64,000 bases of DNA, from contig NC_089273.1 of assembly GCF_963678975.1 (NCBI RefSeq), positions 23,454,356 through 23,518,355 of the forward strand. The letters are read 5' to 3'. The stretch is from Dysidea avara (lineage: Eukaryota > Porifera > Demospongiae > Dictyoceratida > Dysideidae). A program made the translations under genes and the position numbers. This document shows, in pieces, positions 1 to 27,545 of this stretch (positions within the stretch are counted from its first letter, which is position 1; the number at the start of each line of letters is the position of its first letter). The notes below the pieces were generated by a model that saw only the letters and a list, made by a program, of their open reading frames with translations, made no database searches and had not been told where the DNA came from.

Positions 1-1727
1 CTCGGTCAACCTATCCAGTGTTGTGATGGCTACCTTTATCCGTTACCCGTCACGGTCTCATCCATCGCACGGGCATAAAATACTGTGAGTTGCCACTGTC
101 GTGTATGACACCCTTAGGGTTACCCACACGCACGTAGCACCGGCCAGCTGACAACCAGCTACCAGATGTGCATGTGCTGCCCACCTGTGTGTATGTATGC
201 TGCCCTAATAGTCCCATCAAATGTATGAAAGGATGATGGAAGGGGTGTTAATGATGGACTATTAATGTTGGCTTCAAACAAATTGCATGTGCTGATCTAC
301 CACAGACACATCTATTGGTGGGCTTCAAAAAAAATTGTGATCAGCCATTGTCGGCTCATTTGTGTGTGTCGTGGTCTACATTAATGTACGAATGAGTACA
401 GCTTACCACCCTTGACATATGCTTTGTTCCCTTGCAGCGGTCCTTATGGGTGAGTGCTACTTTAGAGGAAGACACAACTGTCAACTCATCCAGTGTTGTG
501 ATGGCTACCTTTCACCATCGCATGGGCATAAAATATTGTGAGTTGCCACTGTCGTGTATGACACTTTTGGGGTTACCGTCGCACTTGCCAGCTGACAACC
601 AGCTGCCAGGTGTGCATGTGCTGCCCACCTGTGTGTATGTATGCTGCCCTAATAGTCCCATCAAATGTATGAAAGGATGATGGAAGGGGTGTTAATGATG
701 GACTATTAATGTTGGCTTCAAACATAATGCTTGTGCTGATCGACCACAGACACAAACCCTATATGTATTGGTGGACTTCAAAAAAAAATATTTGTGATCC
801 GCCATTGTCGGCTCATTTGTGTGTGTTGTGGTCTACATTAATGTACGAATGAGTACAGCTTACCACCCTTGACATATGCTTTGTTCCCTTGCAGCGGTCC
901 TTATGGGTGAGTGCTACTTTGAAGGAAGACACTACTCGGTCAACCCATCCAGTGTTGTGATGGCGTCATCCATCAACCACGTGTCACGCACGGACATAAA
1001 ATACTGTGAGTTTCCACTGTCTTGTATGTCACCCTTAGAGTTACCCACACGCACGGTCACACTTGCCAGCTGACAACTAGCTACCAGATGTGCATGTGCT
1101 GCACAACTTTGTGTATGTATGCTGCCCTAATAGTCCCATCAAATGTATGAAAGGATGATGGAAGGGGTGTTAATGATGGACTATTAATGTTGGCTTCAAA
1201 CAAAATGCATGTGCTGATCTACCACAGACACATCTATTGGTGGGCTTCAAAAAAAATTGTGATCCGCCATTGTCGGCTCATTTTTGTGTGTCGTGGTCTA
1301 CATTAATGTACGAATGAGTACAGCTTACCACCCTTGACATATGCTTTGTTCTCTTGCAGCGGTCCTTGTGGGTGAGTGCTACTTTGAAGGAAGACACTAC
1401 TCGGTCAACCCATCCAGGACCACTGCAGGGCCGGAAGATGGACAATGACTGACTGAAGTGCTCTTTATTTTCTTATTTAAAAAAATTTTTTTATGAATAT
1501 TTATTATTATGAATATTTTGTGCAAATAAATTTTAACTCCTAGTCATCCGGATAGTCTTTAGCTCACACCTTAAATTGCCACAACTTAGATGTGAAATAC
1601 TTTGAAAGTTCTACAGCCCCTAAATGGTGACACAGCAAATTGTTTATAATGCCACGTAATTGTAATCCAGATGACTTGTTTTGCAAAATCGGGTCACACA
1701 TGTGTACTGAACCACCCATCAGTGAGA
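1..1727 (+). repeat. Left terminal inverted repeat of giant transposon, with ~460-bp tandem units
   Basis: This block is the inverted counterpart of 15945-17866. Its outer part is a tandem array. The landmark GCAGCGGTCC recurs at 434, 891 and 1356, giving periods of 457 and 465 bp, and the window opens inside a further copy. The inner ~300 bp (about 1420-1727) is single-copy sequence that also matches the right arm in inverted orientation, up to the shared segment around ACATGTGTACTGAACCAC. The right arm is about 195 bp longer, so the true left end should lie just upstream of base 1. Each unit carries a polypyrimidine tract with TTGCAG and, 12 bases later, GTGAGTGC, which look like a splice acceptor and donor. 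Confidence 0.85.
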
Positions 1728-1764
1728 CATGGACAACAGTTTGATATTTGCTTCACCAGTTATT

Positions 1765-1978
1765 ACCAGGTACCCACTGATGTTACAGCTTGGTGGGCTG
1801 TTTCCCTAGTTAACACCAGGTCCCCATTTAACAGCTGTGGATACTGGAGCAATGTGATTAAAGTTTCTTGCTCAAGGAAACAACAACACAACCAAAGTGT
1901 CCTGACTGGGAATCGAACCTGCAACCTTTCGATTAACACGTTGATGCTCTGAACCACTTGACTATGCTGGCTCATGCA
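1765..1978 (-). repeat. Old tRNA-derived SINE
   Basis: On the minus strand this segment starts with a tRNA-like head. It has an A box TAGTCAAGTGG (1954-1964) and a B box GGTTCGATTCC (1909-1919), and both fit the RNA polymerase III consensus exactly. The region between resembles a tRNA-Asn anticodon arm (GTTAA), but the stem bases no longer pair, so a functional tRNA is unlikely. The part at 1765-1895 resembles, from memory, a conserved central domain seen in SINEs of many marine animals. It lies just inside the left terminal repeat of the giant transposon. Confidence 0.55.
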
Positions 1979-2934
1979 GACACTCACACAAATATGGACA
2001 CCCACACACACTTGCTCACATAATGGCATATTCTTTAAATTTGTAGCATGCAGTGGACACACTGACAGTATACATACGATGATGAGTTACCCATATTGAC
2101 TGTGTGGACTTTATAGTTTATGGCTGTTTAAGCTGCGGATGTTTTTGTCACTCTCTACTCTGGGTGGAACAGGATTAATTACTTCAAGTAAGATTGCTCT
2201 TTAAAGCATTTGATATGCAAAACAAGTTTGTATTTGGTGTAACCAAACCTGCCTTGTCTACCATATCTGCAATAATATTAATGAGTTTACAATGACTGGA
2301 TTCAAGTAGGCATATTGGTATCTACTTACAGCTGATGGAGTCTAATATGATATTTGAATGGAGGATTTACCACAAGGGGTGATGCATGCTCCAGATGTAC
2401 AAGATGTACATCATCGGTGTGCCAGCATCATGGATATCATCAGTGACTTGTGACTTCATCATATCATAAAATCATGTGTCCAATTATTTCGAGTGTTTAA
2501 TATTACATGTACACTTACAATGTACAACATTATATCAGTGTGTTTGCTTAATCTAAAACTGTGCACGTATGTGCCATACAATTTCTATTACAGAGGTCTG
2601 TATTTAGGTCTATGCCAGCCTTGCCAGGCAATAGAGAAAATGAGTTATCTGACTTGAGCATTGCAATTGATTTGTGATGGCATTGACTACACAAAATCAA
2701 ATTTTACTAATTCCTTTATCTTACAGTTATATAATGAATTATCGAATGTCAATATAATTTATCTCAAATGGTTTCCAAAGAATCCAATTAGATGGGTTGT
2801 TAAGTATTTACCTGCTAAGAAAATTCCTATAGTTTAATTATGACTACATAATATTATGCAAACACACTATCATATTATTAATGAGGGTGTGGCATACCAA
2901 CTAACTTTACATTGATTTCAATATTTCACACATG
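1979..2934. other. No gene seen
   Basis: AT-rich interior of the giant transposon. It contains a CA-rich patch near 1980-2012. No open frame with recognisable content or paired splice sites was found. Confidence 0.5.
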
Positions 2935-3770
2935 TATTTCATACAACACTACTACACTTCACTCAAGCTACTTGGCTTGTAACAGGCAATAAGTATGGAA
3001 ATTTGAAGTGCTTTTTTTCAAATTGGGTTTTTTAGTTTGACCACTAACCACACCTACTTTATAAAATTTACTTATGTAATGCGTTATGGTGACTTCTATG
3101 ACATTTTCCTCTATTTAGAACATCAAATGATATTTAATTGTAGACTCCACCCTCTCAGTATTAAAACGGATAATTTTGGTAGTGGAAACACCCACCGACC
3201 ACAAAATTTACATAGATAGACGTCATTCAAAATAAATAATAATGAAGGAACAATGCGTAACATAAATTGACCATGCTAGGGTCAGATCATAAAGTGATTT
3301 TTAATCCTAATAAAACACACGACTACAAGTGTTATCCTGTGGTACCTACATGTATAATCAGACCATATTATAGAAAAGTGTGTTGTATTAGGATTAAAAT
3401 CACTTTGTGGTCCATACACGGTCAATTTACGTTGCACATTGTTCCTTCACACATCAAGTTACTATTTATTTTGAAAGACACCTTTCTATGAAAAAATTGT
3501 GGGTTGTGGATGTTTCCCTCCCGATATCAGCGTTGTTCATATTGAGAGGGTGGAGCCTACAATTAAGCATCATTTGATGTTCCAAATAGTGGAAAGCATC
3601 ATAAAGGTCACCATAAGGCATTTTGTTAAGTGAAATTTGTAAAGTGGGTGGTTTGTGGTTAAACTGCAATCCCCGATTTGAAAAAAAAGCACTTCAAATT
3701 CCCGTACTTATTGGCTGTCCCAAACCATATAACTTGAGTGATGGGTAGTAGTGCTGTATGAGTATCCATG
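2935..3770. repeat. Foldback element with ~390-bp arms
   Basis: The left arm (about 2935-3335) is an imperfect reverse complement of the right arm (about 3375-3770), around a short spacer centred near 3355. Matching landmarks are AATTTGAAGTGCTTTTTTTC on the left with GAAAAAAAAGCACTTCAAATT on the right, and the shared ACATCAAATGAT block. The open frames inside it are by-products of the repeat, not genes. It probably is a non-autonomous foldback transposon nested in the giant element. Confidence 0.75.
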
Positions 3771-3870
3771 CGTAAAATATTGAGGACAATGTATAGTCCA
3801 TTGTTACGATATTGATATTCGTATGAACTTATGAAAATTTGCATCAAGGTTTTGTTTTAGTGAGTACTTA

Positions 3871-6800
3871 ATAATGTAATCCACATAAAATATACAAGAG
3901 GGAGTTAACCATCTAATTGGATACTCAATTAACCTAAAATGATTTTACATGATGCAATTAACACTTGAGCGCAGAGGCTTTAGTAGTTCACAAGAATGAG
4001 TAGTGTTAGTGTATAATAGGATGTAGCTTCCAAATAACCCCATCCTCCCCCCCCCCCCCCCCTTCCCATAAAAGAAATCTTACCCTAACCAGAAAGGATT
4101 TTCAGCTATAATATAATAGTATAATAAATCACGGTCTTGTCCTCCAGCCTGTTTGCAAGGGGTGGTACCTATATATTAGATATTAGTGTCAATAAGCATC
4201 AGCACAGAGAATATGAACTGGAGAACAAGACTTGAGCTGGAGTACAAATCAGTTTTAAATCATCTGGAGAAGTTGTATGTCTCTGACCTGGATCTGTGTC
4301 CACTTCTGCACTTCTCTGTAATGCATGTCTAATTGCTACCTACCAAAATATTCTTAGTACATGCCTCTCTTAGGGTTAGACTCATCTGATTTTACTATCC
4401 AGGTCAGTGGGTAATCTGGGGGGATCATTGCAATACAAATTATAAAGTGATGAAACTAGTGACAGGTTAATCTAATCTCTTTAGCCAAGCAGGTTAGATC
4501 TGTGTATTGATTCTAATTGATTTAATCATTAGCTCTTAGTACATTAATTTAAAAAAAATGTAATCAGTCTGAATCTTCTTCTCATCGACGAGTAAACTGA
4601 AACAATTCAATAACAACACACATGTAACTGTAACAACATAACATAACAATAATTACTGATTAAGCACTTGGGTTGCAATATAGGCTCCATTTAACATATA
4701 CTAGAGGAAACTAGAGGAACCTTGATTGATAGCTAGGTTGTAACTGGATCGAAGTACATGTTTATAGGCATAAACGACAATTTAGGAAAAGATATTGTAC
4801 CCAATACAATACAGAACAAACTATTAATCGTGATTATCTTTTAACTTATAGGATGGCCCCCTTCTAGGAGTCATGTGTGGTTTATCGTTTTATTTTGTAT
4901 TAAACCTGTGTGATACGAATTTAGTTGCATAACAGATTATCTGTTCATGATTTATAATGCAAAATTGGGGTTGATGATTTCATTAACACATGCATGAACA
5001 CCATGTTGAGTAAATTCAAAACATTTTCTAACAATATTGCAGTGAACGATAGTCAGTGCTGTTTAAATGGCAAGTTATCACTTGAGTCTTCCATTAAATT
5101 ATCCATCAATTATTTTGTCATAGAAATTTATTTAATCTACTTAAAATGACATGCCTCGATGACTCTACAGTACAGTGTATATGCGAAGTACCGATACTGT
5201 CGCATACTATCCAACTAGTATCTACCCCTACAAGGAGAACTAACTATTTGTATGGGTATCTTAACAATTCTGTATTTTTGGGTTTGGATATCCAAACAAA
5301 CAATTCAGTATCGTGGTTTGGTATCCAAATAATTATGTTTCTTTGTACTAAATATATATATATACAACTTTAAAGTATGTGATAGACTGATTAACTAATT
5401 TAGTGATATGTTATATAACATTTCAAGGTGCCATTAACAGTACCTGTGTCTATGTCGGCTGTGTGTTTGGCATTGTATTCTGTTGACTATGGCATTCCTG
5501 ATCCATATGTAATAGACGATAGCCGGTTTTTTATTTTTTATTATTTTGCGTACATATGATAACTACTGTAAAGCTAACTTTTCAGACGTTGATACATGAC
5601 ATATTGGCGACGAGGATGGGATTCACCATGATTTAAACCCGTGCAACTTTATACTGGAGCATCACTTAACTGGGAATCGTGAAAACTTAATGTGGCCAGA
5701 GCATGCTACCATTGAGCACTCCATTTTTAATTGTGGGAAACACACTGGGGAAGCTGTAAAGATGGTAGGTAGTAGCTACCATCACTGAGGTGCATCATGC
5801 TGAGCAATGCATTCACCAGTATATGTGACTGGATTTTGGAAAAACGATCCAAATCGCACATTAGAAGTTTCGAGATAAACGGTTTTAAAGAATTGAAGCC
5901 AGCGTAACTCTCCAAGGATAGCAAGCACGCGTATGAAATTTACACAAAAGATGCATCAATCTGTTACCTTTCAAGCCACTTCCAGTACTTGTAGCTGCTT
6001 GTACAGTTTCCCGCCAAATAAGATAGAAAATCTGAGCAGTTGGACGAGCGCAGTAGTATCACTGGTGCTCACAAAAGGGTGGAGGCTGGGGGGTGACGGG
6101 GAGGGCAAAAGATAGGCCTCAAAATGGAGGCAGACCACGATTGGAGTCCAGACACGAGATTACAGGGCTGTGCTGGCTCCTTAGTGGCTGATATGTAGCA
6201 AAATCTACAGAGAACACGTCTGGCCAACATTATAAGGCTGTCCACCAGTAAGCCACTGATTCTTGACAGGCCAGGTCCTTCACAAGGCCTGAAACCGCCA
6301 TTTGGGCACTCCACACCACCCAGAAAAGACGTCTACTAAAACCAGCCTCGTGTAGTTTGAGTAGTGCTGAGGGTCAAAACTTGTAGTACGATAGTGTAGC
6401 TATTCACTGGTGGTGTTAGTTTGATTTTGCCTGATGTGCGATTTGGTTCGGTTCTGTAAAATCTGGTCACATATAACAGGTGCCAAATCTGTGTTATAAT
6501 AAAGTGTCAAACTCCTACAGTAGGTCTGCACCCCTGGAACTGCTGACAGTAAGGCAACTTGAGGTGCAAATTAGAAAATACTTTTAGTGATATTTTGCTA
6601 AAGGTAACTGTCATACTTGTAGGGAAAGACTGTCATTTGGCAATGGATTCCCTCCTCTATAACATACTGATGCTAAACAATGCCAACTCACTTTTTTTTA
6701 ATTTGATCAGCATCCATTTTAAAACAAACAAAAAAAGTGAATAAACAAATCATTAAACATGATAAATAAAGTTTTTAATTTATTTATTTTCAGTAATACA

Positions 6801-7234
6801 GCTTTGGTATGCTACAATGTACGACAACTGTATGAACACTTCAATTATTTACCTTATTTCAGTCATGCTTCAGTGCACTGCACCGGCCTTGCACACCCGG
6901 TACATTGCACCGGCCTTGAAATGTCTGTGCATTGCACTGGCTCTCTGGAAACATACAAATATTAAGTAATAATTCTTTTTGACTACAGCTAAGTCACACA
7001 ATACAGTATAGCTTGGTATACATGCATAAAGAAAATTACAGTTACTTCAGTAGCCTCTATTATTGCCAACGTAATCTACTTGTTCTATTAAAGTACAAGA
7101 GTAAATAATGGTAGATACTGTATCACAGTGCCCTGTTAATTGTACCAGTGTAACTTTTGTTGTCATAAAAGTGTCTCTGTCTAAGTACAGCTCTATACAA
7201 ACCATATCATCACTTTGAACACTAAAGCACAATA
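3871..7234. other. No gene seen
   Basis: A long AT-rich interior stretch. It includes a poly-C run at about 4047-4062 and three imperfect copies of a GCA.TGCACCGGCCTT motif at about 6877-6945. An AATCTGGTCACAT segment near 6461-6475 resembles a lone end of the TGTGAC MITE at 7235. No coding exon could be supported on either strand. Confidence 0.4.
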
Positions 7235-7480
7235 TGTGACCAGATTTGCGTAAAGGCCTAGGGGTCTTCCACACACATCCACTTTTATGAATCTGAAAGA
7301 TCATAACGTGATGCTCACTAAAGCTACAAACCTGAAAATTGTACCACCCCTTACACTATGTTAGTGCTCTCGACAGTGAAAATTTCAAGTCCATAGTTTC
7401 TCCATGTTCAAAGTTATGATATGCTGAATGTGTTAAATTGGATGTGTGTGGAAGACCCCCTTTTCGCTAATCTGGTCACA
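7235..7480. mobile_element. MITE with TGTGACCAGATTTGCG terminal repeats
   Basis: A 246-bp element with about 50-bp terminal inverted repeats: TGTGACCAGATTTGCG and GGTCTTCCACACACATCCA on the left, and their complements on the right up to TCTGGTCACA. The same ends flank the larger element at 50570-51600. No coding capacity is seen. Clear target-site duplications are not visible. Confidence 0.7.
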
Positions 7481-10400
7481 AATGTGCATACCACTTGTAT
7501 ATGTGCAGACAGGCAAATAACCAAGAGGGGTTCTGAGGACCCCCCCACATACACACACACGTGCACACCAATTGTGAACAAAAGTACACCTTTTCACCAT
7601 ACAGGGGTTTTTTTTGGAGATAAAAAAGGATCTAACCCATGACAAAGTCTGATTAAGGGGCCTGATAGACTAATTTAGGACCACTTGTTAATAGAGAATG
7701 TTAGCACCTTCTTTGAGAATGTTTAACAATCTACCATTACTTAACACATTGAGACCCCTGTGTCAGCATTAACTAATGAAAGTTATTAATGGCTCACCTA
7801 TCTTCATCAATATAATTAATTTCTAAAAGGTTAAACAAATATTAAAAAGAAACAATAATACCACAATTCACATGATTGTATTAGCACTCATGCCACACAA
7901 GAACACTGCTATATAGACGTTAACAACACATAGACATTCACATGGCGCATAACCACACACATATTATGCATACAACTCATGTTTATACACTCGCAAACGC
8001 ATATCTGCGCAAACGTGAAAGTATACCTTAAAGGCTAGCATGGGTAATACAATGATATAAATTCCTGGTAAACTTGCTTGTAGCTATTTGTTGTGGACTG
8101 CTCTGTATGCATGGTCCTTATGTGACCCTAGGGTCCGCAGTCTGTACACTACCTGCTATTAGTTAAGTAAACTTATGTTCGAAAACATAAGAACAATACC
8201 GCAACAAAAGAAAAAATTTTAACCTTTCCAAATTAAAAAGTGCCCTGACCAAATTGGATAATGCACACGTATACATTAACTCTAGCCGTTGAACTCGCTT
8301 GCACGCATGTACACATACACTACATCACACACACACAGACACACACAGACACACACAGACACACACACACACACGCACACGCACACACACACACTACACG
8401 CACACGTGCACTGACAACCTTATACCATACATACAGTAGACACATTTGACAAATCACAACTCTACGTACATTTGAAACTGCACACAAATCTCACCCTTTA
8501 ATATCCCAGCAGCTGCAGGTGGTGTACTATCAGCATTACTACAAAGCCAATGATATTGAGTCATGGATGCAGCTAATGTCTTACAACAGTGTACAAGCAA
8601 TTATGTGTACACCAAACTTCAACTGTGGCTTTTAAGTTTAGGCTGGCCAGTGGTTATCTCACTGGATATATCTCATTATACATAATACAACCATGATCTC
8701 ACTACCTATATGTACTTGGCTCCATGCTCCCATACCCTGTCAAACAACTTACTTGTAATGTTTGCAACAGCAAGCGCCCATGTTCGGTTTCAATCAATTA
8801 TAACATTCTAATCAATCATAGTGATCAACACCCTGGGTCCCATTCCATATGCACGCACTGCTATGGTACATTGCCGGCTGCGGCCATCATAACTTCAATT
8901 TCAGTGCGGCGCCCGTGTGTGTTATCAGGACCACGGTGATCACTTACTAGCATATTTAAGCTGATATCAATCTCTTTTCCGATTAACTACTCGATATTGC
9001 TTACCCGCTCGCTTACAGCTGATTTCAAAATATCAGGCCGTCACGTGACTCTACTGTTAGTTCGTCATCGCTGAGTGTCCATGACACCAAGAACCTATGG
9101 ATATATTCGAAATGACTCACGTTGCAGACTAATTAATGACTATGCTCTATTGACTTTTTTTGGGTCATTTGTGGAATGATTTTAGTATTCATTTTCTATT
9201 TTCCTACAACCAGGAGTTCATAATAAAAGTGAGATGGGGGGCTAGGGGTTTGGGGGTTATAGACTCTTGCTACAATCAAATCCCTAGCCGGTTATAACAT
9301 ATGTTTTGTCACACTAAGATTCCATTCAGTGTATATATACACTAGTAGAGATAACTAAACTGAGGTAGCTTTTCACGATCAATGTTTATTGAAAGGAAAT
9401 TAGTAAGGAATTCAGCTGCAGGATGTCCAGTCTGCCTGTCACATCTGTTAAGCTGGTACAGATTCTCAGTTGGACACCTACGTATGTTACCTATTGTGAT
9501 GAATTACTACAGGACTGAGCCACTGGCAAGGGGCAGTTGTTTGTACAAGTATTGCCGAGAATTGACACTTTGACACTTTCACTGAATACGGTTATTTTTT
9601 TCCCCTAATGTTGTTCAGTTGTGGAGCAATCTTCCTGATCATATAACCTCTTTAGAATCCTGACATTTCCATCAATAATTCATTTTATAATGTATTGACC
9701 TTAGCTATATTTATTGACCTCATGAGAACATGACCATATTTGATATAATTGCAACATCCAACAACAACAAACCATTATTGCATTGTAACACTTTAGACAA
9801 TATGATGCATTCTATAAAGAAGGTATTGTGGCATGCAGCTACAGTTCTGGATCTGCAACGACCAGCAGTACAAACCGTAAGGTGTATGTGATTGTAGTGT
9901 GTGTACTGTGTATAAGGCTGTGTACGGTTTAGTGTTTATGTTTAGGCTTAGTGTGTATACACAAAAAAACCGTGTGTGTGTGTGTGTGTTTGTAGTATAT
10001 GCACATGAGCAGTGTAAAGAGTGGTGTGTAATGTTTGTATGAATATATACATATCTATACAGGGATGCCATGCTCGCCTGTGCATGTGAGTGAGTCATGA
10101 TGTGTCTGCATTAATATTCTTTATCAGTATTTCGACTCCTTTGTGTATACCTATGGGAGCATGTCATTGCATGAACAGAGCAAGATTGAAGGGCAATCTG
10201 GGCCTTTTCAGATTAGGGTGGCTTGATGTTTTGTGGTAAAATTCATTGATTTGTCCACAAAGGCTTATGGTGTACTGGTCCATGTTAATACGGGTATTAT
10301 TGTACAGACTGTATCATTGCCCTTTTAAGGAATAAATCATTGGGAAGGTTATACAATATATATGTAAGTTAATTCTAGGAAATATAGCCAGACCGCAACA

Positions 10401-11972
10401 TATGATGATTAATGACACAGTTAACCAGCCCACCTTATCCAGGATCACCCACGTCTTTATAGCTACTGCAGATGTATCTGAAATCCACAGTAGGGTATCA
10501 TTACAAACTCTATCGTACCTTATTCTAATCAAATATAATACACATTGACTGCTGAGAGTACTATGACTGAATGCAGTGCGTCCATCTAGTGGTGTGGGGG
10601 GACAACATCTGCCATTGAAAGCAGGCGCATGTTGACGCTTCCTGTGAAGGGGGTTAGTATCTACCATTAAAGCAGATGTACATTGCAGGTATCAGTATCA
10701 CTGAAAATGTAAATTGGTCCACTCAAACTGTTGACTCTTTGCCAATCATAATATCCCTGATGTGTAATGTATCTCTATATGTAATGCGTGCAACGGTTGT
10801 ATACAGAGTGTAGTGCGTGTAACAGTTGTGTAAAGAGTGGATAACCGTGCAGTTATATTAGTCATTTTGAAATGGTATGTTAAAATTAAATATTCTTCAT
10901 AGGCTTTATGGGATGCTCTATACAACAGAACTATTGTGAGTGTTCAATTTTTGTATGTGTGTGTATGTATGTGTTATAATGCGGTGGTCATGTCTAGTAT
11001 ATGGTGAATGTATACATTACTTGAGATGGGTATAGGTGGCATGGGTTGTATAATGTGGTTGGTATACGTGTAGTGTGTGTTCATAGTTACATATATTGAT
11101 TCTGGGTCAATGAGAGTGGGACAAAATGTAGTCCTAGCCATGGCAAGGTTATTACTACACATTGTTTTTGACAATTTACTCCAGTGTACACGTGTTACTC
11201 TGTGCAGTGTGTTCATGTGTGCATGTTTGTATTCATATATACAGGCTTGTATATACATTTTTAGCCTTACACATAAACCCCTTTTATACTCAGGACCATG
11301 TATTTACAACCATCATAGAGTGTGTATGTCTTTGACAGTTAAGCCGGCAGAAACACATGTTGACTGCGGTTCACTGGCTTATGTATTTCTTTAAGTATAT
11401 TTCTAAGGGAAGTATGCATCATTATGAATACGGCTATGGTTATGGTCAGTAACAAAAAAAATATAAATTACATGGACAGGTATTCACATTACATGATACC
11501 TAAGAAAGATATGTGGCAGTTGCATTGGACTCTGTGCTCAGGATTATAGCTAGTACATTGTACCTTGTAGTAGGGTTACATTAACGTACATAGTTCCATG
11601 TCTGTATGCATTAGGAAAAATGTGTAATGTTTATCTCCAGGTTCAAGATGCCTTATCTACACTGAAGCTTTAATGGTATATCAACTTGAAACTATTAGTA
11701 CATTTTAGGTACAATTTAGCCAAACAAATTTTATTACATGTATGTATATAGATTGTATATATGTGTATATTAGTCATAACTGAATACAAAAAAAGAACCA
11801 AATTAAATTTATCTGTGTAAAGTACATACTACAAGAGTTGAAAAGTGATTACATAGGAGGAGCTATACAATCATACAATACTATCAAATGTATTTGATAA
11901 TTAGCTTGAATTAACACACAATGTGTATGTTATGTCTGTAGAGTTAGCGGTTTTTTTTTTGGTTTTTTTTTT
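7481..11972. other. No gene supported; microsatellites only
   Basis: This is transposon interior without a recognisable gene. It holds a CA-rich microsatellite (about 8320-8405), GT-rich tracts near 9976 and 10960, and a palindromic TCACGTGA E-box-like site near 9041. A minus-strand open stretch at 10314-10667 has splice-like sites but no recognisable domain. Confidence 0.4.
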
Positions 11973-12515
11973 TCAAGGTAAATAGTTTATTTTTCCACAT
12001 TTTGCTTGGATGTCTATTTCCTTTACCTGCTGAGACAGTTTGCTGGCTACTTGAGGTAGTGTCTTGTTTGCCAGTATGATGTCAATGCCATCCCTTTCTA
12101 TAACCTGCTGTACTTGGTTGTATAACTGCAGTAAGTTTGTGGCGTTTACGTCTTTACTGTCTTGTTTTAAAGCATTGAATGCAGCTACAAATACATAATG
12201 CCCGTGTTCTGTCCAGAGTCCACTGATGGTCTGTTCATTATGACTTTTCATAAATTTCCAGCCTTCTTTTTTCAAGTATTCTTGTTCAAAGTGTCTTGGT
12301 CTCTTCTTCCTTTTTATTTCCTAACCTGAACATTTATTATGTACATCATCGTCATTGCCATTATCACAATGTAAGCATTGGCAATTATCTGTACACAATA
12401 CCATTGCCTTCAAACAAGGACATCTGGATGAATATCGATTGTTTTTTGTACAATTGTGACGATTGCTATCCAGTGCTGGTTGACCTCACCCACATCTACA
12501 AGACTTGTTTTTAGG
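11973..12515 (-). pseudogene. CXC-type cysteine-rich tail of the transposase with in-frame stops
   Basis: Reading on past the TAA that ends the OTU domain, the same frame encodes SCRCG, then CTKNN, CPCLKAMVLC, NCQCLHC and a final C. This spacing is typical of CXC (tesmin/TSO1-like) DNA-binding zinc modules, which also occur in some transposases. A basic stretch (KRKKRPRHF) and about 100 residues follow, ending at 11973. A TGA inside the CXC module and a TAG after it interrupt the frame. Because TAA, TGA and TAG all occur, stop-codon reassignment is an unlikely explanation. Ordinary decay is the simplest reading. Confidence 0.6.
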
Positions 12516-14276
12516 TTATGTCTGCTTATCATCGCTTTTAGCAGGAACATCAGCTTCATTAGTGATGCAATTCTCTTCCATTAGCTTTACCACAGGGGAA
12601 TAGTGTCCACTGCCGTCATGTGTATAGGCCAAGCACATAGATTCCTTGGAAGCAATGGCACTATGTGGGTTAACAGTGAGGTAAGGCCAACTTGGTATTG
12701 ACATAAACACTATTATTTGCAAACGCAGTACATTACTTAGCCCAAGCAACATCGCATCCCCTAGTGAGGTAGTGTAAATACCACTGGCCCTGTAATTATC
12801 AGCATCTTGCTCAAAGTTAATGATGTCATCCAGAAAAGGTATATATTCTTGTTGATTTCCAATCCATTCATCCACCATTAGATTCCTCAATAACCCCACA
12901 CACAGACTATCAATTCTGATACCTATTGATTGTAAATGTTCTAGCAAACATAAGTCACTACTTGACTGTAACACCTGCCTAAGGTAATGTATTACTGATG
13001 AAAATAGACAATCACCATTCTTAGGAACTTCAGATAGTGTCAATCCAAATGATTTCAGTATATTGATTAGAGTGGCCTCACTGCAGTCATTACCCCGGAT
13101 ACCATCTTCCTGTCTACGCATATTGGAGCATTCTTCAAGGAATGGCATTACTCGGCCAACAGGCACATGTGAATCCGAAATCTTATTAAGTACTTCCTGT
13201 GCATATAAAAGACTAAGTGCATCATGTAATACATTGTAAACTGAATCTTCATTAGTAAGTTCGATTTCTTTATGGGTAAGCTTATACTGATCTACTGTCT
13301 GTAAAGTATTACATGTGTCAGAGCTGAAGCATTTACCTAACAAAGGTACATTATCAATTAGGTGTGTCCTTTTAGAAGATACACCTATACCAAATTTTGG
13401 TCCTTCATAGGTGGGTAATGCATCACTACCAAAGCTTGACATTAGATACTGGGATATGCTGGATGAGTCATTGTCATTCCGCTTGTTATTCCACATGTGT
13501 AGAAACACAGCTATAAAGGCCACAGCTACTTCAACTCCCAAACGATTACCAGAAAACCTTGAGTTTAAAGACCTGTGCAAATTTTCATTCCTGTTTGTAC
13601 CAAAGTGAGCTGGAATACCACTGAGACATCCCCTGTTGATATGAATTTTGAGGTTGTTTATTTCCTTAAACACTGCTGTTGTTAGTATGGGATTTGAATT
13701 CTGGTCACATATAGAAGTCCATTTAGATAAGTACACCTGCAAGTTCTGCAACAGTTTGTCAGGAGAAGGCGTGGGCTGTTTTCTTATCATGCCATTATCA
13801 CCGCATGATCGGAAGACCAGACGAAAATCTTGTAGTGCTTGAAAGAAGTATGGGTGTTTCTTTGATATAGCTGTTGATATTCTTTTAACAGCATGAAACA
13901 AGTCTAATTTAACAGCTATATCATTACCAAGACTACCAGTTAACATATTCCTCCACATACAGCAATTATCAATTACTACCATTTTAATATCGTTCCTGGT
14001 TTTCAAATGTTCAATGCCATCACGAATTGCTGAATAGGCAGTTCCCATTGTTAGCTGCCAGTACAAAACTTCGCCATTTTTGTTTTGTATGATAAACAGA
14101 GAGTCATATTGTGGAACCCACTTGCCACAACGATAAATTCCCACATGAGAAGCAAGTTTAAATGTATGGTCACAACTGATCATTTCACCTTTTATCGTTG
14201 ACATTAGAGATGACATGAAACCTTTAACTTCATTGTAGGTAATAACAAAACAATTTATGATGAGATCAATGCTCAA
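12516..14276 (-). CDS. Transposase core (DDE) fused to OTU cysteine protease, longest open part
   Basis: This is an uninterrupted 586-codon stretch of the decayed transposase. The likely DDE metal ligands are D36 (SCDHTFK), D103 (VVIDNCC) and E231 (GTNRNENLHRSLN). An LDLFHAVKR segment lies between the second and third, as in several cut-and-paste transposases. The C-terminal part (about residues 410-562) is an OTU fold: PKNGDCLFSSV holds the nucleophile C423, and HDGSGHYSPVV holds the general base H558. OTU proteins are normally deubiquitinases. All predicted catalytic residues of both domains are present, so these parts seem better preserved than the flanks. No ATG start belongs to this fragment; upstream sequence is frameshifted. 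Confidence 0.7.
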   Translation of the reverse strand: MSIDLIINCFVITYNEVKGFMSSLMSTIKGEMISCDHTFKLASHVGIYRCGKWVPQYDSLFIIQNKNGEVLYWQLTMGTAYSAIRDGIEHLKTRNDIKMVVIDNCCMWRNMLTGSLGNDIAVKLDLFHAVKRISTAISKKHPYFFQALQDFRLVFRSCGDNGMIRKQPTPSPDKLLQNLQVYLSKWTSICDQNSNPILTTAVFKEINNLKIHINRGCLSGIPAHFGTNRNENLHRSLNSRFSGNRLGVEVAVAFIAVFLHMWNNKRNDNDSSSISQYLMSSFGSDALPTYEGPKFGIGVSSKRTHLIDNVPLLGKCFSSDTCNTLQTVDQYKLTHKEIELTNEDSVYNVLHDALSLLYAQEVLNKISDSHVPVGRVMPFLEECSNMRRQEDGIRGNDCSEATLINILKSFGLTLSEVPKNGDCLFSSVIHYLRQVLQSSSDLCLLEHLQSIGIRIDSLCVGLLRNLMVDEWIGNQQEYIPFLDDIINFEQDADNYRASGIYTTSLGDAMLLGLSNVLRLQIIVFMSIPSWPYLTVNPHSAIASKESMCLAYTHDGSGHYSPVVKLMEENCITNEADVPAKSDDKQT

Positions 14277-15079
14277 AAGTGTGTCACATGATTGTCAGGG
14301 CATTCTAACGCTTCTTGCAGCTGAGATTGTTTGTTCATAACCCTCCGGATCAGATGAGTTTGAATGGACCACTTTACGAGTTTATGAATGTCATGAAATG
14401 AAATTCCTAATGCACAATGATGAAAAATAGTATACTGTAAGTTCACGGGTCACACCAGCTTTGTGTAGGAGAAAGAATGGAATCACACATCGTTTGTTAA
14501 ACTTGACCAGAAACCTAGGATCACTAGTTGCTATGAAATGTCCATTGGGACATCTGTAAATTTTACACACCAACAATACGCATCCTTCAAGACCATAAAT
14601 ACACCGAGGGTTATATCGTTGTTGTGATCCATCCTGCCATGTCAGAAATGTCATGTGCTTGTCGCATCCAGCCTCATTGCATGACATTGAACTTTGAAAA
14701 CTGGCAAATATATCAGGGAATTGTAAGATAGGATCCCAGATTATCACTCCAGGAAAGTTGTTATCAATACTGTGATCAGCAATCTGTTATATACATTAAA
14801 AAAAGGTGAACGGCATTTCATAGTACAGGGCTAAGTGTGTTTCCTTACTTGTCTAGGAGATTCAATATCACCACTACTTTGACTTTGCATCCAAATTATC
14901 GAAAATTGGGTAGGACTTAAGACACATGGTCCCTGTGTGTTCCTTTGATGTTGAGCTATTACCAGTTGAACATAACTGGCCCATTCCGACTTGAAGTGTA
15001 CCCCTGACACGAATCCAATAGTGCAGAACATTGCTAAGCAGCAATTGAACAAAGTCACCAGTAAGACTAAGCTTGTCAT

Positions 15080-15944
15080 TATGAGATCGTAGACTGTATA
15101 TGACTGTCATTTAAGCTTACCCTTTATATAGGAATTCTAACGGTGATGACATAATGGGACAGCTACAGGTGGTGATGAACTATACAATGATTGTGCTAAT
15201 TTGTTATGTTTCCTTATTATGTCAAGTTTTCTTTTAAACATTACAATAACAAGTGCAATGGCAATCCATGCCAGTGATAATTCGAACTACTGTATACGTC
15301 CTACCATATCACTACCTCATTCATTGGCGACATTCAACACCTTAAAAAATTTTTAAAAGGCATTTAACTCAAAACTTGCAATTATGTATAGCTAGGCAAT
15401 AGGACTGGGTTTAGTGTATAGAGCCATATACAGTCATGTTTGTCAATCTATCTTCACAAACAACAATACTATTATAGTTAGAACATCTTTAGCTAGTGAC
15501 AGGGAGTCGTGGATCTGGACATAATAGGGTTAGGTGATGATAAAATGTCAATAGGTAGAACCCAAATTAATGTAGGCGTACCCTAAGGTTGATGGTTTAG
15601 ATTCAGCATGCAGTTTACCAGGTGGTCACCAAGGTGCAGGTAGCTTCAATGGTCAGCTGGTGATTGACACTTCTGTAGCTTGATTATGTCTTATGTCAAC
15701 CCAAGGGTTTCTCAGTATCCTGACAACACATCATCTAAAAATTAATGTTCATTCAACACCATCATTAACACATTTTTTTATTCTCAGAAGTGGCTACACA
15801 TACCACAAATCATAGCACTAGTGGCAAATAACACAAAACAAATATTAGTCAACCACCCCTAACCTTAAGGCCCACAAGCCATCCAGGCTTTGATAGTTAT
15901 TGTTGATGGTTACAATGCAACAGAGCGCCCCTTAGGGTTCTCAG
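15080..15944. other. Spacer between transposase and right terminal repeat
   Basis: No gene was recognised. It probably holds the start of the transposase gene and its promoter, but no first exon with an ATG could be identified confidently. Confidence 0.35.
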
Positions 15945-17866
15945 TGGTTCAGTACACATGTGTCAGATTTTGCCAAACAAGTCATCTGGATTATAATTAT
16001 GTGGCATTATAAACAATTTGCTGTGTCTCCATTTAGGGGCTGTAGAACTTTCAAACTATTTCACATCTAAGTTGTGGCAATTTAAGGAGTGAGCTAAAGA
16101 CTATCCAGATGACTAGAAGTTAAAATTGATTTGCACAAAATATTAATAATAATAAATACTCATAAATTTTTTTTTTTAAATAAGAAAATAAAGAGCACTT
16201 GAGTCAGTCATCGTCCACCTTCCGGCCCTGAAGTGGTCCTGGATGAGTTGACCGAGTTGTGTCTTCCTCGAAAGTATCACTCACCCTGCAAGGGAACAAA
16301 GCATATGTCAAGGGTGGTAAGGTGCACTCATTCGTACATTAATGCACACCACAACACACACAAATGAGCCGACAATGGCGGATCACTATTTTTTTTGAAG
16401 CCCACCGATAGATATAGGGTTTGTGTCTGTGGTCGATCAGCACAAGCATTTTGTTTGAAGCCAACATTAATAGTCCATCATTAACACCCCTTCCATCATC
16501 CTTTCATACATTTGATGGGACTATTAGTGCAGCATACATACAGACAGGTGGGCAGCGCATGCACATCTGGTAGCTGGTTGTCAGCTGGCAAGTGCGACCG
16601 TGCGTGTGGGTAACCCTAAGAGTGACATACAAGACAGTGGAAACTCACAATATTATTTTTATGTCCATGCGTGACACATGGTTGATGGATGACGCCATCA
16701 CAACATTGGATGGGTTGACCGAGTAGTGTCTTCCTTCAAAGTAGCACTCACCCATAAGGACCGCTGCAAGGGAACAAAGCATATGTCAAGGGTGGTAAGC
16801 TGTACTCATTCGTACATTAATGTAGACCACGGCACACACAAATGAGCCGACAATGGCGGATCACAAATATTTTTTTTGAAGCCCACCAATACATATAGGG
16901 TTTGTGTCTGTGGTCGATCAGCACATGCATTTGTTTGAAGCCAACATTAATAGTCCATCATTAACACCCCTTCCATCATCCTTTCATACATTTGATGGGA
17001 CTATTAGGGCAGCATACATACACACAGGTGGGCAGCACATGCACATCTGGTAGCTGATTGTCAGCTGGCAAGTGCGACGGTAACCCCAAAAGTGTCATAC
17101 ACAACAGTGGCAACTCACAATATTTTATGCCCATGCGATGGCGAAAGGTAGCCATCACAACACTGGATGAGTTGACAGTTGTGTCTTCCTCTAAAGTAGC
17201 ACTCACCCATAAGGACCGCTGCAAGGGAACAAAGCATATGTCAAGGGTGGTAAGCTGTACTCATTCGTACATTAATGTAGACCACGACACACACAAATGA
17301 GCCGACAATGGCTGATCACAATTTTTTTTGAAGCCCACCAATAGATGTGTCTGTGGTAGATTAGCACATGCATTTTGTTTGAAGCCAACATTAATAGTCC
17401 ATCATTAACACCCCTTCCATCATCCTTTCATACATTTGATGGGACTATTAGGGCAGCATACATACACACAGGTGGGCAGCACATGCACATCTGGTAGCTG
17501 GTTGTCAGCTGGCCGGTGCTACATGCGTGTGGGTAACCCTAAGGGTGTCATACACGACAGTGGCAACTCACAGTATTTTATGCCCGTGCGATGGATGAGA
17601 CCGTGACGAGTAACGGATAAAGGTAGCCATCACAACACTGGATGGGTTGACCGAGTTGTGTCTTCCTCCAAAGTAGCCCTAACCCTAAGGACCGCTGCAA
17701 GGGAACAAAGCATATGTCAAGGGTGGTAAGCTGCACTCATTTGTACATTAATGCAGACCACAACACACACAAAGTAAGTAAAAGGAGTGGAGAATGGTGG
17801 ACATTTTTTTTCAAGCCCGCCCATAGAGATAGGGTTTGTGTCTGTGGTAGATCAGCACATGCTTTC
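15945..17866 (-). repeat. Right terminal inverted repeat of giant transposon, with ~460-bp tandem units
   Basis: This is the reverse complement of 1-1727 with many small differences. The landmark GGACCGCTGC occurs at 16758, 17213 and 17689, giving periods of 455 and 476 bp. The inner single-copy part (15945-16250) matches 1420-1727. Repeat similarity ends near 17866, where the sequence switches to unrelated DNA. That point is taken as the outer end of the transposon. A clear target duplication cannot be tested because the left end is outside the window. Confidence 0.85.
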
Positions 17867-17974
17867 AGTTAGAATCACTAGCCTGTATACGGGAGTTTGT
17901 AAAACCCGAAATAAAGAATAGAGGAATAAGGAATAGCGGAATAACCAAAAATTTAATTCTAGCCTATTTCTACC

Positions 17975-18865
17975 GTATAGAGTCATTAATCGATTCCCGG
18001 ACGATTCTATATCCGGACACCTGTAGCAGCCAAACGAATTATCCCACAATTCTGATATTTGGACCATAGGTGGACCTAGGTGTTAGGACTTTACATACCA
18101 AAATTTATGGCAATCGGTTGAAGCAGCTAGGAATGCAAAGCCCAAATACCCGTCCGACAAAAAAATCGTTATCCGGACAACAGCTCGTAAATCCTCAACC
18201 AATAAATGGATTGCTTCCAAACTTGAGTATATGTAACTATAGTCTATGCTTATACTATGATAAAAATTTGGAGTCCAAACTCCTCACCAGCTGGGAGATA
18301 CGGCTTGCTAAACTTGACCTACTGCAACGACCCTATTTCCGGATACCTCATCAACTGTAAGTAACTTGAGTGTATCTACAGCAACTTTTACTCCACTCAA
18401 TCAATCTAAATGCTTTGAATGAAGGTTATATTGACATATTTATGTTATTTCTCCTCTCTAAATGTGTTTTATGGATACTTTTAGCTGTCCAGCTATTGCA
18501 GCTCTACACCCTACAATACATGTAAAGACGAGGTGTCCGAAAATAGTGGTCGTTGTAGTAGGTCAAGTTTAGCAAGCCATATCTCGCAGCTGGTGAGGAG
18601 TTTTAACTCCAAATTTTTATCATAGTAGAAGCATAGACTATACTTACATTTACTCAAGTTTGGAAACAATCCATTTATTGGTTGAGGATTTACGAGCTGT
18701 TATCCGGATAAAGATCTTTTTGTCCGGTCATCGATTTTTTGCTGGACGGACATTTGGGCTTCTCATTCCTAGGTGCTTCATCCGATTACCATAAATTTTG
18801 TTATGTAAAGTGTTCCGGATATAGAATCGTCCGGGAATCGATTAATGACTCTACATGCTCTACAG
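17975..18865. repeat. Foldback repeat with ~350-bp arms
   Basis: The left arm (about 17975-18355) pairs with the right arm (about 18534-18865) around a spacer of about 180 bp. Paired landmarks are AGAGTCATTAATCGATTCCC with its complement at the far right, and AATCCTCAACCAATAAATGG with CCATTTATTGGTTGAGGATT. No transposase is encoded. It is probably a non-autonomous element lying between the giant transposon and the P-loop gene. Confidence 0.8.
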
Positions 18866-19270
18866 TTATTATACGCTACTTATCTCGTAGTAAGACTACA
18901 ATCGCGACGACGGAGCGATATCATTAGCGATCCTCAAGGTGATCTTTAAATAGGATGCACACAAAACAATCACTCTATTTCAGACTGGCTGAGCTAAACT
19001 ACCTTCAAATACAATTTACTGTAGATCCGCTATTAAAAGATTGGTTCTTTCTGGTGTGCTTGCTGCTTATTTCAGCTATCACACTCTAGGAACTGCCCAA
19101 ATGTCAGCACCATCAAGATGCCCCTGAAGGACTTCACATCCAGTGATGGAAGCTATGCTAATCGACGCCCAGTCACATGATCGACCATGTAAGGTTGTTC
19201 TATTCAGTAGGGATTGTGATGTAATGAATGAGCTAACCCTAACCTCACTGAACATTTAGGTGGATGTGAG

Positions 19271-19278
19271 TATAAATA
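19271..19278 (+). promoter_or_regulatory. TATA box of the P-loop ATPase gene
   Basis: TATAAATA lies 103 bp upstream of the proposed ATG at 19374. This fits a start site near 19300 and a 5' leader of about 70 nt. The assignment rests on sequence match and spacing only. Confidence 0.45.
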
Positions 19279-19373
19279 CAGCGAGGTTAGCATGCTGAGA
19301 CTAATTTTGGAGACAAGTGTGTTTAGGCTGCTCTAGAGACTAGCAATTTACCCTAAGGTGAACAATTGTCGCG

Positions 19374-22317
19374 ATGGAGTCAGACAACAGGAGTGTTGAA
19401 AGTTACCAGAGTCTTAATGTCTCTGTGGAGACTGAAAGTGAAAAGAAGGTGCAGTTGGGTGTGCATAAGGCTTCCATTTCATGTTTGCTTTAACAATTAG
19501 AATTTCCATGTGGATGGGGAGAGTGTGACGTTCGGGACGGTGACCAGCAAAGGTGAATACAAGCCAAGATCCAATTTCACCCTACAGTTACAGACGTTTG
19601 TGGAAGTTGGCAAGATGACTGGGTATTTTGCCACCGTCAAAAGGAAGCTGGACGGCAGAGAAAGGTGATACTGACTGATCGTGTTAGGTGCATGGCTGCA
19701 AGTGGCTTAGGATTAGACTTTGTGAAAGTGCTAGGGTTAGAAAATGTACAAATAATTCTCACTTGAAGTGTAGAGGCCTAAAGAGGTTACTGAACATAAG
19801 ATTTGGCAGCTGGCAATTTGGTAACCCAAACCCTAAGGCAATCAATAAGCTAGGGTCTGTAGATATGTGCTAAATCACTTACAAACCTTGTGGGCTCGTT
19901 CTAACTTAACAATTGGGTTTGACTTTTCACAGAATCTGCTACTACACGACAGAAAGTCTGCTGTTTAAACACCGCTTCCTTCATGAATTAATGACAACCT
20001 TTAAGAGTGGCGGCTTGACTTGTTCTCTGACCGATAGGGAGCTGGTGGAATTTCACAATCACCTCGAGAATTCTTTTCCGCACGGAGAGGAACACAGAAC
20101 CAAGCAGGGCCTGGAGTGCGTAGGTAGGCAGGAAAAAGACAACACTTGGGTGCTGAGCCCCGAAATTCACATTAGCAGATCTGGCATTCTAATTCCTACG
20201 AGAGAGTCCAAATATGCTTGGCAGCCAATTGGAGGACCAAACATTGAACTGCCCGCTGGTAAGAGCCAAAGTCTGACGCTGCCACTCTTCAGCAACATTG
20301 CCGTACCTTTGGAGTCCAGCAACACCCTTAATGCACTACTGGAGGTAATGAAGAGCACACTGAAGCACAATTTTGTAGCAGGTGAGCCAGGCTATTGCAT
20401 GGATGAGGTCTTACACATTGGTTTGTGGAGCAGGTGTGCTATCAGTAGCAGCGGGCATCATGGCTCTCCACTATGACATTGTGCTGGACCTGAATGGTTC
20501 GTGTCTGATTCCATTCTTGTTTGGAGACACCGAGACAGGTATGTGCGGTGTGATCTTAGCGAGGCCGACTGTTATGTATAACCCTAAAGGAAAATCCACA
20601 GCCATAGAGTGCACTCTGTCTGTGTTTGGACAGAGAGAGGTCAGCCACCTCATGAAGACGAAGGGGACTTCCGATAGTCTGTGTATGGAGAGAATAAAGA
20701 AATCCACTCTGTCGTTTGCCCTGGATAATCCAAAAAACATGGACGACATTGGAGATCTGCTGATACAGCTGTGCAACGGCAAGATGACCGGAAACATGCG
20801 GACAGGACTTTACAAGCTGCGTTCAATCCCACTTTTGTGCTGCAATTTTAATGTGTGCAGCGTAAGGAGGTAAGAGTCAAAATAAGATTAAAATAAAACT
20901 GTACAAAGTTGATAAAGCATCAATGACCTGTTAACGATGGTTGGTGGTAATATTCTTCTGTCCCATGTGTAGGTACATGTCAAGAGCGCTGCTGATACCC
21001 TTTGATAAACCGGCCATGGGACCAGTTAATGAAATTGAGTCTGCTGCGTTCAGTGGCTTGAGAGTGGCATGCAGAAATGCTTTATCGGCAGTTGGATGGG
21101 CCATCAGTATGGGTGAAGCGCTCAGGAATGATGTTGCTTACGTCCACAATGAACTTTTCAAGAGGACTATGAGCAGACTGGCCGGGGTGGATCCCAGATT
21201 GGTGACCGGGTATACGGTGTGCCTTTACTTTGCAGAAAAGGTAATAGTGTAGTAGTTAGAACATACCGTCTGTTGAGACAGCACGCATGTGCATGTGTAC
21301 ACTGTGCCTGATCGTAATAACCTTTGCAGCTTGCTGTGGAGAGTAACTTTGGCTACCTGATGGATGAACTGGAGGAGTTCATCGAAGAACGGGTATTGCC
21401 CATCTTGTGCCCTACAGAACCACAATGCCTAGCTGAGCATTCCCTTGACCCTCTGGATGCTAAAAAGGCAGTAGTCCTCAACACCATAGAAGAGGCGGTG
21501 AGTTGGGCAGAAAAAATTGTGGAGGAAAAAGGAAAGCATGTGGTGAGCGGATTGGGCACGTGTGGTTTATACTTAGGGTAAATCTTAATATGACACACAG
21601 GTATTACAGAGCATGCGGACAGGGGTAACGCTCCAAGGGAGAAGAGCCGTGGCAATCTGCCTCGAGGACATGGCGCAAGCTCTAACAAACAGCGCAACCG
21701 CTATCAGGGATGCAGTCAAATGCTGCAAGATGGGGGCTAACAACGTGGCAAGGGACTTTGTGCCGAAAGGAACCAATAACTGCACTATAAAGAGAGGCAC
21801 AAATTCCAAATCTAGAAAGTGCACGGTAGTTTGGCAGGACACACTACCGGAAAACATTACCGTAACAGTCTGCCAAGGTGATTATAAGTTTTTGTGACCT
21901 TGTGGGGACATGATCAATATTACGCTTACACAGCTGCCAGTGTGCCAGTGGAAGGGGTGGAACCCAAGACAGGGCCATTGACTAAACCAGCCAGCCCTGA
22001 TGGTAAACGCAGGCTTCTTATAATTACAAACTAATATTGTCTGTGTCTACAGGTAGCACAGAGCCTGTGGATGACAACAATCGTACAATAATAGAACCAA
22101 AGGATGATCAATTTTCGGCAGGTGAGCACACTAGCCACGCATGATGTCATGGTTTATTTAACATTGGACAGGTGAGATCACTAGTAGCAGTGATGACGAA
22201 GAGGGTCATAATGGGCAGGACAGCGAGAATGGAAAAAGGCGTACAACAAGGAGCGGCTCAACCATTCCAACAAAGAAATGGAAGAAGAATCTGGATCCAA
22301 ACAACCCTTTGGACTAA
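19374..22317 (+). CDS. 11-exon P-loop ATPase (SF3/DUF927-like), 704 residues
   Basis: Exons: 19374-19448, 19501-19664, 19933-20381, 20434-20538, 20590-20869, 20973-21240, 21330-21542, 21601-21877, 21934-22002, 22053-22121, 22172-22317. All ten introns are GT-AG and keep frame, giving 2,115 nt with one terminal TAA. The start is the ATG at 19374, the first downstream of a TATA box. Splicing exon 4 to exon 5 creates Walker A, GDTETGKST (residues 260-268). LSFALDNP (D310) fits Walker B, CCNFN (N350) a sensor asparagine, and RRYMSRALLIPF (357-368) an arginine-finger region as in SF3/AAA ATPases. Residues 1-230 are unfamiliar. The C-terminus (from about 610) is acidic and Ser-rich with basic patches GKRRTTR and KKWKKN, possible nuclear signals. 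The layout resembles DUF927-type helicase-like ATPases, but substrate and role are unknown. It could be a host gene or captured from a mobile element. Confidence 0.8.
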
Positions 22318-22322
22318 CTAAA

Positions 22323-22342
22323 CCCCCCCCCCCCCCCCCTAC

Positions 22343-22375
<33 letters not shown>

Positions 22376-22410
22376 CACACACAACACACAACACACAACA
22401 CACACACACA
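22323..22410 (+). repeat. Poly-C followed by CA microsatellite
   Basis: A run of 17 C (22323-22339) is followed by (CA)n with ACA variants. It begins six bases after the stop codon of the P-loop gene. The same CA tract next to ACAATTGTAC and a shared flank appears inverted at 49080-49235. Confidence 0.9.
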
Positions 22411-24405: not shown

Positions 24406-24469
24406 AATACTGAAATATAGCTTTAAATACTGAAATATAACTTTAAATAATGAAATATAGCTTTAGCAA

Positions 24470-27400: not shown

Positions 27401-27545
27401 GGTTCTTACTGAAAAGAATTTGCTGTGAACGTTCTTTTGGGCATGAGGTTTGAAAAAGTTTAAAGTCAAGTCCCCTTGTGACACTTGACGAATTCAGGTG
27501 GAAGAATAATCCAGGTTGGAGATTAACATTCCCTTGTAAGATATT

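Follow-up and report, generated by a model that had tools for sequence, protein, structure and literature searches.

A probable giant two-gene DNA transposon with satellite-built inverted arms in the sponge Dysidea avara

When long inverted repeats are themselves built from satellite units, the question arises whether the DNA between them is a mobile element and, if so, where it ends and what moves it. Here we address this question for 64,000 nucleotides of the demosponge Dysidea avara (contig NC_089273.1, here C2:23454356-23518355; the whole stretch is referred to as the window, and negative coordinates lie to its left). A preliminary description of the window had proposed a giant transposon of about 18 kb with satellite-built inverted arms. 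We find that the element, copy E1, spans 30,345 bp (C2:23448533-23478877, window -5822 to 24522) and has GGTG...CACC termini. Judged from its sequence, it is very probably a giant terminal inverted repeat (TIR) DNA transposon with 8-bp target duplications and two divergently oriented genes, one for a putative DDE transposase and one for a putative DUF927-type P-loop protein. The core of the proposal is borne out by copies with the same ends and, in part, target duplications, while its size, boundaries and gene count had to be revised.

Boundaries, copies and target duplications

The inverted arms recognised before are real and represent the inner portion of longer arms. The pair 1-1715 and 15944-17890, far beyond chance, belongs to an inverted match of -234 to 1715 with 17890 to 15944 (94.9% identity, 1,963 columns), which consists of tandem units spaced 444-481 bp apart and, in addition, a shared inner part. 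The left arm had been expected to stop about 195 bp outside the window; this contiguous segment indeed ends 234 bp out, which is not the end of the element. On the other side, the right arm appeared to stop at 17866, since 1.2 kb lacking a left-arm match (17891-19099) come next. Inverted matches resume farther out (left/right: -371 to -283/19188 to 19100; -1947 to -739/22963 to 21741; -2740 to -2522/23294 to 23076; -5822 to -4753/24522 to 23298), and both they and the homology to other copies run past the former boundary to end at the tips at -5822 and 24522. An 18-kb element was therefore rejected, and the locus is an example of a window-sized view mistaking an inner repeat boundary for the end of an element. 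In E1 the left arm measures about 7.5 kb and the right arm about 8.6 kb; both are discontinuous chains of segments, 82-96% identical, which are broken by unmatched stretches and by the second gene.

Genome searches covered 550.8 Mb in 108 contigs, and only the best candidates were scored. An arm query gave at least 55 matches (best 40 of 2,123 first-look candidates scored), and all large arm matches among those scored lie at six places (E1 to E6), the rest being the repeat at window 1713-1900 only or short pieces of the same element. A query from the outer arm returned the identical six places, besides a widespread simple-repeat part and a few 90-200 bp pieces on C2. A 35-base tip pattern with up to three mismatches matched the genome 12 times, always within the six copies (reversed control: 0); the left tip of E6 is present twice. 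Read inward, the tip common to the copies is 5'-GGTGSTGTCTTCRTGTTGCACACACGAATTATAAAG, with one base different at the right tip of E5. Independent occurrence of the arms as plain satellites was thus not seen, as every tip match and those arm-unit matches that were scored fall inside the six copies. Apart from E1, the lengths are 27,587 bp (E2), 27,063 bp (E3), 24,290 bp (E5) and about 26.3 kb (E6).

Target duplications accompany three of the five two-ended E copies. They are perfect in E2 (AAATATTG/AAATATTG, 8/8) and in E3 (TGAATTAG/TGAATTAG, 8/8), whose flank is itself a short repeat, and match at 7/8 positions in E1 (ACATTCTT/ACATTCTC), where the extension to the left yielded both the tip and the duplication. 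Flanks of 0.6-3 kb, compared at 10 of the 12 ends, are unrelated apart from four short matches (46-284 columns), which marks the element as a transposon. The defined ends, target duplications, several insertions in unrelated flanks and a transposase of its own are those of TIR (class II) elements. Over about 4 kb of the interior E2, E3 and E4 are mutually 99.4-99.85% identical, other pairs being 96.9-98.1% identical (1.3-4 kb). Since E2-E4 hold only the N-terminal transposase exon and lack the start of gene 2, they were most likely mobilised in trans, and recently.

A second, diverged subfamily has similar tips. Its longest member surrounds a 937-aa open reading frame (ORF) on C8 (C8:26229813-26246833, 17,021 bp) with inverted arms and tandem repeats, has GGTGCTGTCTTGGTGTTGTACGCACC tips, of which the right is doubled in part, and lies in a 7/8 duplication (TGGATTTG/TGGATTGG). 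Its tip pattern matched the genome 16 times (control: 0); eight of these matches form four facing pairs, the other eight being single or tandem tips. The four two-ended elements so delimited range from 0.3 to 17 kb, and all four examined have duplications, two of 8/8 and two of 7/8. Next to the C8 element they comprise one on C6 (16233300-16247247) with both genes, the transposase frame being broken (GATAACCC/AATAACCC, 7/8), one on C14 (3058753-3063854) with gene 2 and no transposase among the matches listed (ATTTTCTG twice, 8/8), and one of 0.3 kb on C9 (L142, C9:5129519-5129833; CAAAATAT twice, 8/8). In all four 8/8 duplications of the two subfamilies the ninth base, read by eye, does not match. 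The miniature on C9 combines second-subfamily tips with GTCTC units in its arms and is possibly a minimal substrate.

Two divergent genes

The preliminary description had found one recognisable transposase and little other coding content; the transposase-like gene between the arms stands, and a second gene has to be added. In E1 the transposase gene is a remnant (Table 1) whose parts follow in the order N-terminal exon, zinc-ribbon-like region, helix-turn-helix (HTH), DDE, OTU and CXC. A protein search led to the paralogous 937-aa open frame on C8, 67% identical, against which the E1 gene has six stops and one stretch in another frame. The two share 66.8% identity over 588 codons at a ratio of nonsynonymous to synonymous divergence (dN/dS) of 0.127. 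In E5 the transposase lies in pieces in two frames, and in E2-E4 the N-terminal query alone of five exon queries found a match. An alignment to the C8 frame comprised twelve family members from the genome, several of which are incomplete or contain stops. All 12 keep the D of SxDHT and that of [IV]D; the NRNENLH-type motif retains its E, and LDLFHA its D, in 11 of 12 each. These residues presumably form the DDE set; other motif letters vary in L041, L043, L044, L045 and elsewhere.

Domain assignments were sought with Pfam scans up to E 1 or E 10, although HMMER filtering removes the majority of matches with E above about 0.1. Motifs of OTU type (NGDCLF-like and GHY-like) occur in most members covering that part, the Pfam OTU model giving E-values of 0.0085 (E1) and 0.037 (C8), both short of the curated cut-off. 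MSL2-CXC reaches 3.6e-5 in family member L039, just below the cut-off, and is not listed for the C8 protein, though the cysteine pattern is present. Sequence searches of the Protein Data Bank (PDB) gave weak OTU matches only (4bou; 0.008 for E1, 0.14 for C8), plus chance-level rows. The IMG/VR scans showed no transposase relative; relatives turned up neither among the GTDB contigs nor, by tblastn, in plasmids, and NCBIfam gave no match. The best transposase family match of the DDE part is phrog_5749 (5.5e-4 in L039, 0.0095 in E1), a family that we assign to ISL3 because it is matched by four ISL3 transposases with E-values from 7.6e-60 to 3.5e-126, the latter for ISPpu12. The ISL3 models of Pfam gave 0.11 (DDE_Tnp_ISL3, L039) and 0.046 (HTH_Tnp_ISL3, C8), all ISL3 matches staying below the cut-off, and Zn_ribbon_ISL3 was not listed in the Pfam scan of the family proteins. 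Profile alignment with hhalign places the zinc-ribbon-like region, HTH and DDE collinear with ISL3; shuffles of the sub-regions reached the score in 0 of 60, 1 of 60 and 0 of 60 cases, the reversed template scored 15.9 versus 32.9, and IS5 and frame-broken IS3 controls scored near zero. As column shuffles of the whole profile do reach its score (see below), the alignment is not taken as proof of ISL3. ISL3 sequences gathered as a reference from the contig collection were near-identical copies and of no use. Taken together, protein 1 is probably a DDE transposase with C-terminal OTU and CXC domains, and its likeness to ISL3 is weakly indicated. As a separate observation, a genome search with PF01610 listed 12 other loci with matches to an ISL3-type DDE (C15:8728127, C14:11332756 and others), 6 of the 12 over the Pfam cut-off with neighbours, with open frames of up to 500 aa.

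Gene 2 emerged as a chain of coding blocks when the right arm of E1 was compared with C8 by tblastx. Seven exons with GT-AG introns were found. Introns occupy the same positions in E1 and C8; other GT-AG choices exist, and the chosen junctions agree between both. Splicing creates a Walker A motif, GDTETGKST in E1 and GETETGKST in C8. The Pfam model DUF927 matches at 2.5e-4 in C8, just below the cut-off, and at 0.011 in E1, well below it, and a PHROG primase/helicase match reached 1.2e-4 with a query that had one wrong junction. Relatives were absent from the IMG/VR scans. Protein 2 is likely a helicase or another DNA-dependent ATPase. Over 583 codons E1 and C8 are 65.5% identical, with nonsynonymous and synonymous differences per site of pN 0.210 and pS 0.757, the latter saturated; together with the dN/dS of the transposase this indicates purifying selection on both genes between the subfamilies. 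Exons 3-7 are present in all six E copies. Gene 2 is also part of the elements on C8 and C6 and lies near the transposase loci C14:8.66M and, at a distance of about 19 kb, C15:1.81M. It is found at places without a listed transposase too, and is missing from the neighbourhood of many degraded transposase loci. The two genes of E1, like those of C8, point away from each other, and in both subfamilies a satellite lies between them.

Subterminal arrays and intergenic satellites

Close to most tips lie arrays of 10-bp units starting with GTCTC. At 11 ends (nine of E1-E6, two of C8) GTCTC occurs 16-165 times, mostly 10 bp apart, and GAGAC never; gaps of exactly 10 bp make up 156 of 164 at the right end of E2, 78 of 90 at its left end and 24 of 28 at the left end of E1. 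The search took in 1,800 bp per end, so that long arrays are lower bounds, and the array at the left end of E6 was seen only through a search with a 32-base array piece. This tip-array piece matched the genome 351 times (control: 0), in all cases among the matches listed within the six copies. Units differ between the subfamilies (GTCTCTAGTA/GTCTCCTATA vs GTCTCTCATA/GTCTCTGATG), with period and orientation conserved; the units were chosen by the pentamer, so that conservation of the pentamer, in contrast to spacing and orientation, follows by construction.

The 460-bp satellite of the arms has four unit cores in each arm of E1 and one to five per arm in other copies. In E1 and C8 alike, the tandem-repeat part of the right arm sits between the two genes, its inverted copy lying in the opposite arm. 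Comparison of the intergenic satellites of E1 and C8 gave no nucleotide match; hence the position is conserved and the sequence is not. The 460-bp satellite between the genes probably just fills the arms, recombination having spread it, or else acts as a promoter-bearing spacer. Further repeats touch the arms. The stretch 17891-19099 is probably a nested insertion. Window 1713-1900, where the left arm meets the interior, is a dispersed repeat some 190 bp long; its many genome copies are 71-92% identical among the matches listed. A 2-kb left-arm stretch of E1 that is absent from the other arm contains, at -3924 to -3360 (in L025), ORFs with GGNDCGLFAAAY, which we take to resemble the Ulp1 (C48) protease motif; it is probably a nested element as well.

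Table 1. Features of copy E1 inside the window (window coordinates; a dot marks features without strand).
Feature	Position	Strand	Remarks
E1, part within the window	1..24522	.	termini and flanks
Left arm, inner part	1..1715	+	~460-bp tandem units (cores -90, 386, 843, 1308), then inner part common to the right arm
Transposase gene remnant	11976..15106	-	15106-14831, 14786-14394, 14294-12519, 12485-12324, 12320-11976; frameshifts and stops
Right arm, inner part	15944..17890	-	inverted copy; four unit cores (16294, 16772, 17227, 17703)
Stretch without left-arm match	17891..19099	.	285-column inverted pair (18088-18352/18527-18811); also in E6
Right arm, outer part	19100..24522	-	19100-19188, 21741-22963, 23076-23294, 23298-24522: inverted matches to left-arm parts outside the window
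Gene 2, seven exons found	19501..21879	+	19501-19664, 19933-20381, 20434-20538, 20590-20869, 20973-21240, 21330-21542, 21601-21879
Subterminal array	23941..24396	-	10-bp units starting GTCTC in the tip-to-interior direction; GTCTC 40 times, GAGAC never
Right tip	24486..24522	-	inward GGTGCTGTCTTCATGTTGCACACACGAATTATAAAGA
Right target duplication	24523..24530	+	ACATTCTC; left counterpart ACATTCTT outside the window; 7/8

Outside E1, the window contains two copies of a composite repeat with shared ends and a long array of 31-bp units (TCTCTACAGGGTGATTTGTTTGTAGCTGAAC) at 27545-32994 and 41312-45847, the tail part of which is also found in E2-E4, and palindromic tandem arrays of GTAGTGACGTTCACTAC-type units at 48297-48700 and 57028-57233.

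Alternative explanations, relatives and significance

Several observations weigh against a two-gene transposon with an ISL3-like enzyme. E5 (ends AAAATTCA/CAAATTTT) and E6 (CAACTTCT or CCACTTCT/GACATTAC) have no target duplication, which led us to reject both as clean insertions, and E4 has one tip only, the right one not being found with a further 3 kb on the right included. The main transposase exons exist in E1 and E5 only, broken in both, and none of the five exon queries matched E6; E2-E5 have a truncated gene 2, which lacks exon 1 and retains part of exon 2. The right end of E5 has no array, and the arrays repeat every 10.0 bp, compared with 10.5 bp per DNA helical turn, so that the sites drift round the helix. 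To the sub-threshold ISL3 and DUF927 values given above one has to add that the C8 protein does not match phrog_5749, that none of the 12 PF01610 loci belongs to the transposase family, and that 4 of 100 column shuffles reach the full hhalign score.

Gene 2 could be a captured host or phage-like hitchhiker without a part in transposition, and its truncation in E2-E5, of which E2-E4 nevertheless spread recently, fits this explanation. We regard it as rather unlikely, as exons 3-7 persist in all six E copies, the gene recurs in C8, in C6 and near two more transposase loci, purifying selection acted on it between the subfamilies, and its place relative to transposase and satellite is conserved.

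Unlikely, too, is a foldback-type member of a known superfamily, that is Mutator (Mutator-like elements, MULE, including Rehavkus) or the P superfamily like Galileo, whose arms were enlarged by a satellite. A D-D-E layout with a DxFH-type block is also known from MULE-like families. Foldback elements such as Drosophila Galileo and Tetris are alike in having tandem repeats inside long inverted arms, and Galileo repeats hold extra transposase binding sites (PMC4079207). In contrast, our Pfam scans listed no MULE, THAP or KDZ (Zisupton) model (for THAP with the N-terminal exon of E1 included), the best transposase family match is to ISL3 (phrog_5749, L039), and the present element differs from Galileo and Tetris in its second gene, its other transposase and the 10-bp tip array found in two subfamilies. 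Moreover, its duplications are 8 bp long and not 9 bp as in MULEs.

A virus-derived or replicating element of the Polinton/Maverick or Teratorn kind, after loss of capsid and polymerase genes, is very improbable. Starships and Mavericks fall into the same size class; they have other enzymes and large gene sets, and Teratorn unites a piggyBac transposase with herpesvirus genes. Size class and long inverted repeats are shared with Teratorn (PMC5601938), and the helicase-like gene would fit as well. Against this, the ORF listings show no large frame besides the transposase, Pfam having been run on chosen ORFs so that a viral fragment may escape, and neither protein has an IMG/VR relative in the scans made. 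A segmental duplication or satellite block without any transposon, as E5 and E6, the occurrence of some copies on a shared chromosome (C1, C15) and the repeat nature of the arms might suggest, is the least credible and was rejected, given that homology ends at identical GGTG/CACC tips in unrelated surroundings, that all 12 tip matches and, among the matches listed, the array are confined to the six copies, that E2 and E3 have perfect 8-bp duplications, and that a diverged subfamily shows similar termini and duplications.

For the giant transposon with two genes, partial parallels exist elsewhere. Bacterial ISL3 insertion sequences, which make 8-bp target duplications, resemble it in this length, in the zinc-ribbon-like/HTH/DDE order seen in a weak profile alignment and in the phrog_5749 matches of L039 and E1. 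They differ in that the sponge element is eukaryotic, has introns, OTU and CXC domains and a second gene, measures 24-30 kb and is very weakly similar in sequence. Ginger1 elements of animals likewise have an OTU protease fused behind a DDE transposase; according to PMC2836005, they differ by 4-bp duplications of CCGG/CCGT type, TIRs of 40-270 bp, lengths of 2.6-7 kb and a Gypsy-integrase-like DDE. Neither 4-bp CCGG-type duplications nor TGTNR ends were found in the E or second subfamily. DUF927-type helicases are encoded by the mobile staphylococcal SCC and SaPI elements (Cch, SaPIBov1 Rep; PMC10061031), which are bacterial islands with other recombinases, the likeness being restricted to the P-loop region.

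How such an element could move can be outlined as follows. The transposase would bind the tip and the 10-bp array, the latter recognised by the CXC or HTH domain in analogy to the extra binding sites in Galileo repeats, and the arms may bring the distant ends together. The ATPase may aid synapsis, repair, remodelling or replication of so long a unit, and copies without a working transposase would have moved in trans. The OTU domain could have ubiquitin as its target during repair, a role proposed for Ginger (PMC2836005). With a confidence that falls somewhat short of even, we propose that these elements constitute a new superfamily of eukaryotic DNA transposons, in which an ISL3-like DDE-OTU-CXC transposase and an element-encoded DUF927-type helicase would move units of up to 30 kb, perhaps replicating excised DNA, after a row of protein has formed on the tip-near array with its sites about one helical turn apart; the CXC domain would read the GTCTC/GAGAC units. 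The CXC domain of MSL2 reads GA-rich DNA, and the CXC domain is MSL2-like in one paralog. Among the open-licence PMC papers listed we found no description of the element, and to our knowledge a helicase-like partner gene is rare in cut-and-paste elements. If the proposal is true, a large two-gene lineage, possibly a eukaryotic branch of ISL3, would be added to the eukaryotic cut-and-paste transposons. The presence of array and intergenic satellite in both subfamilies makes the pairing of the ends of very long elements, as well as the growth of satellites in their arms, accessible to testing.

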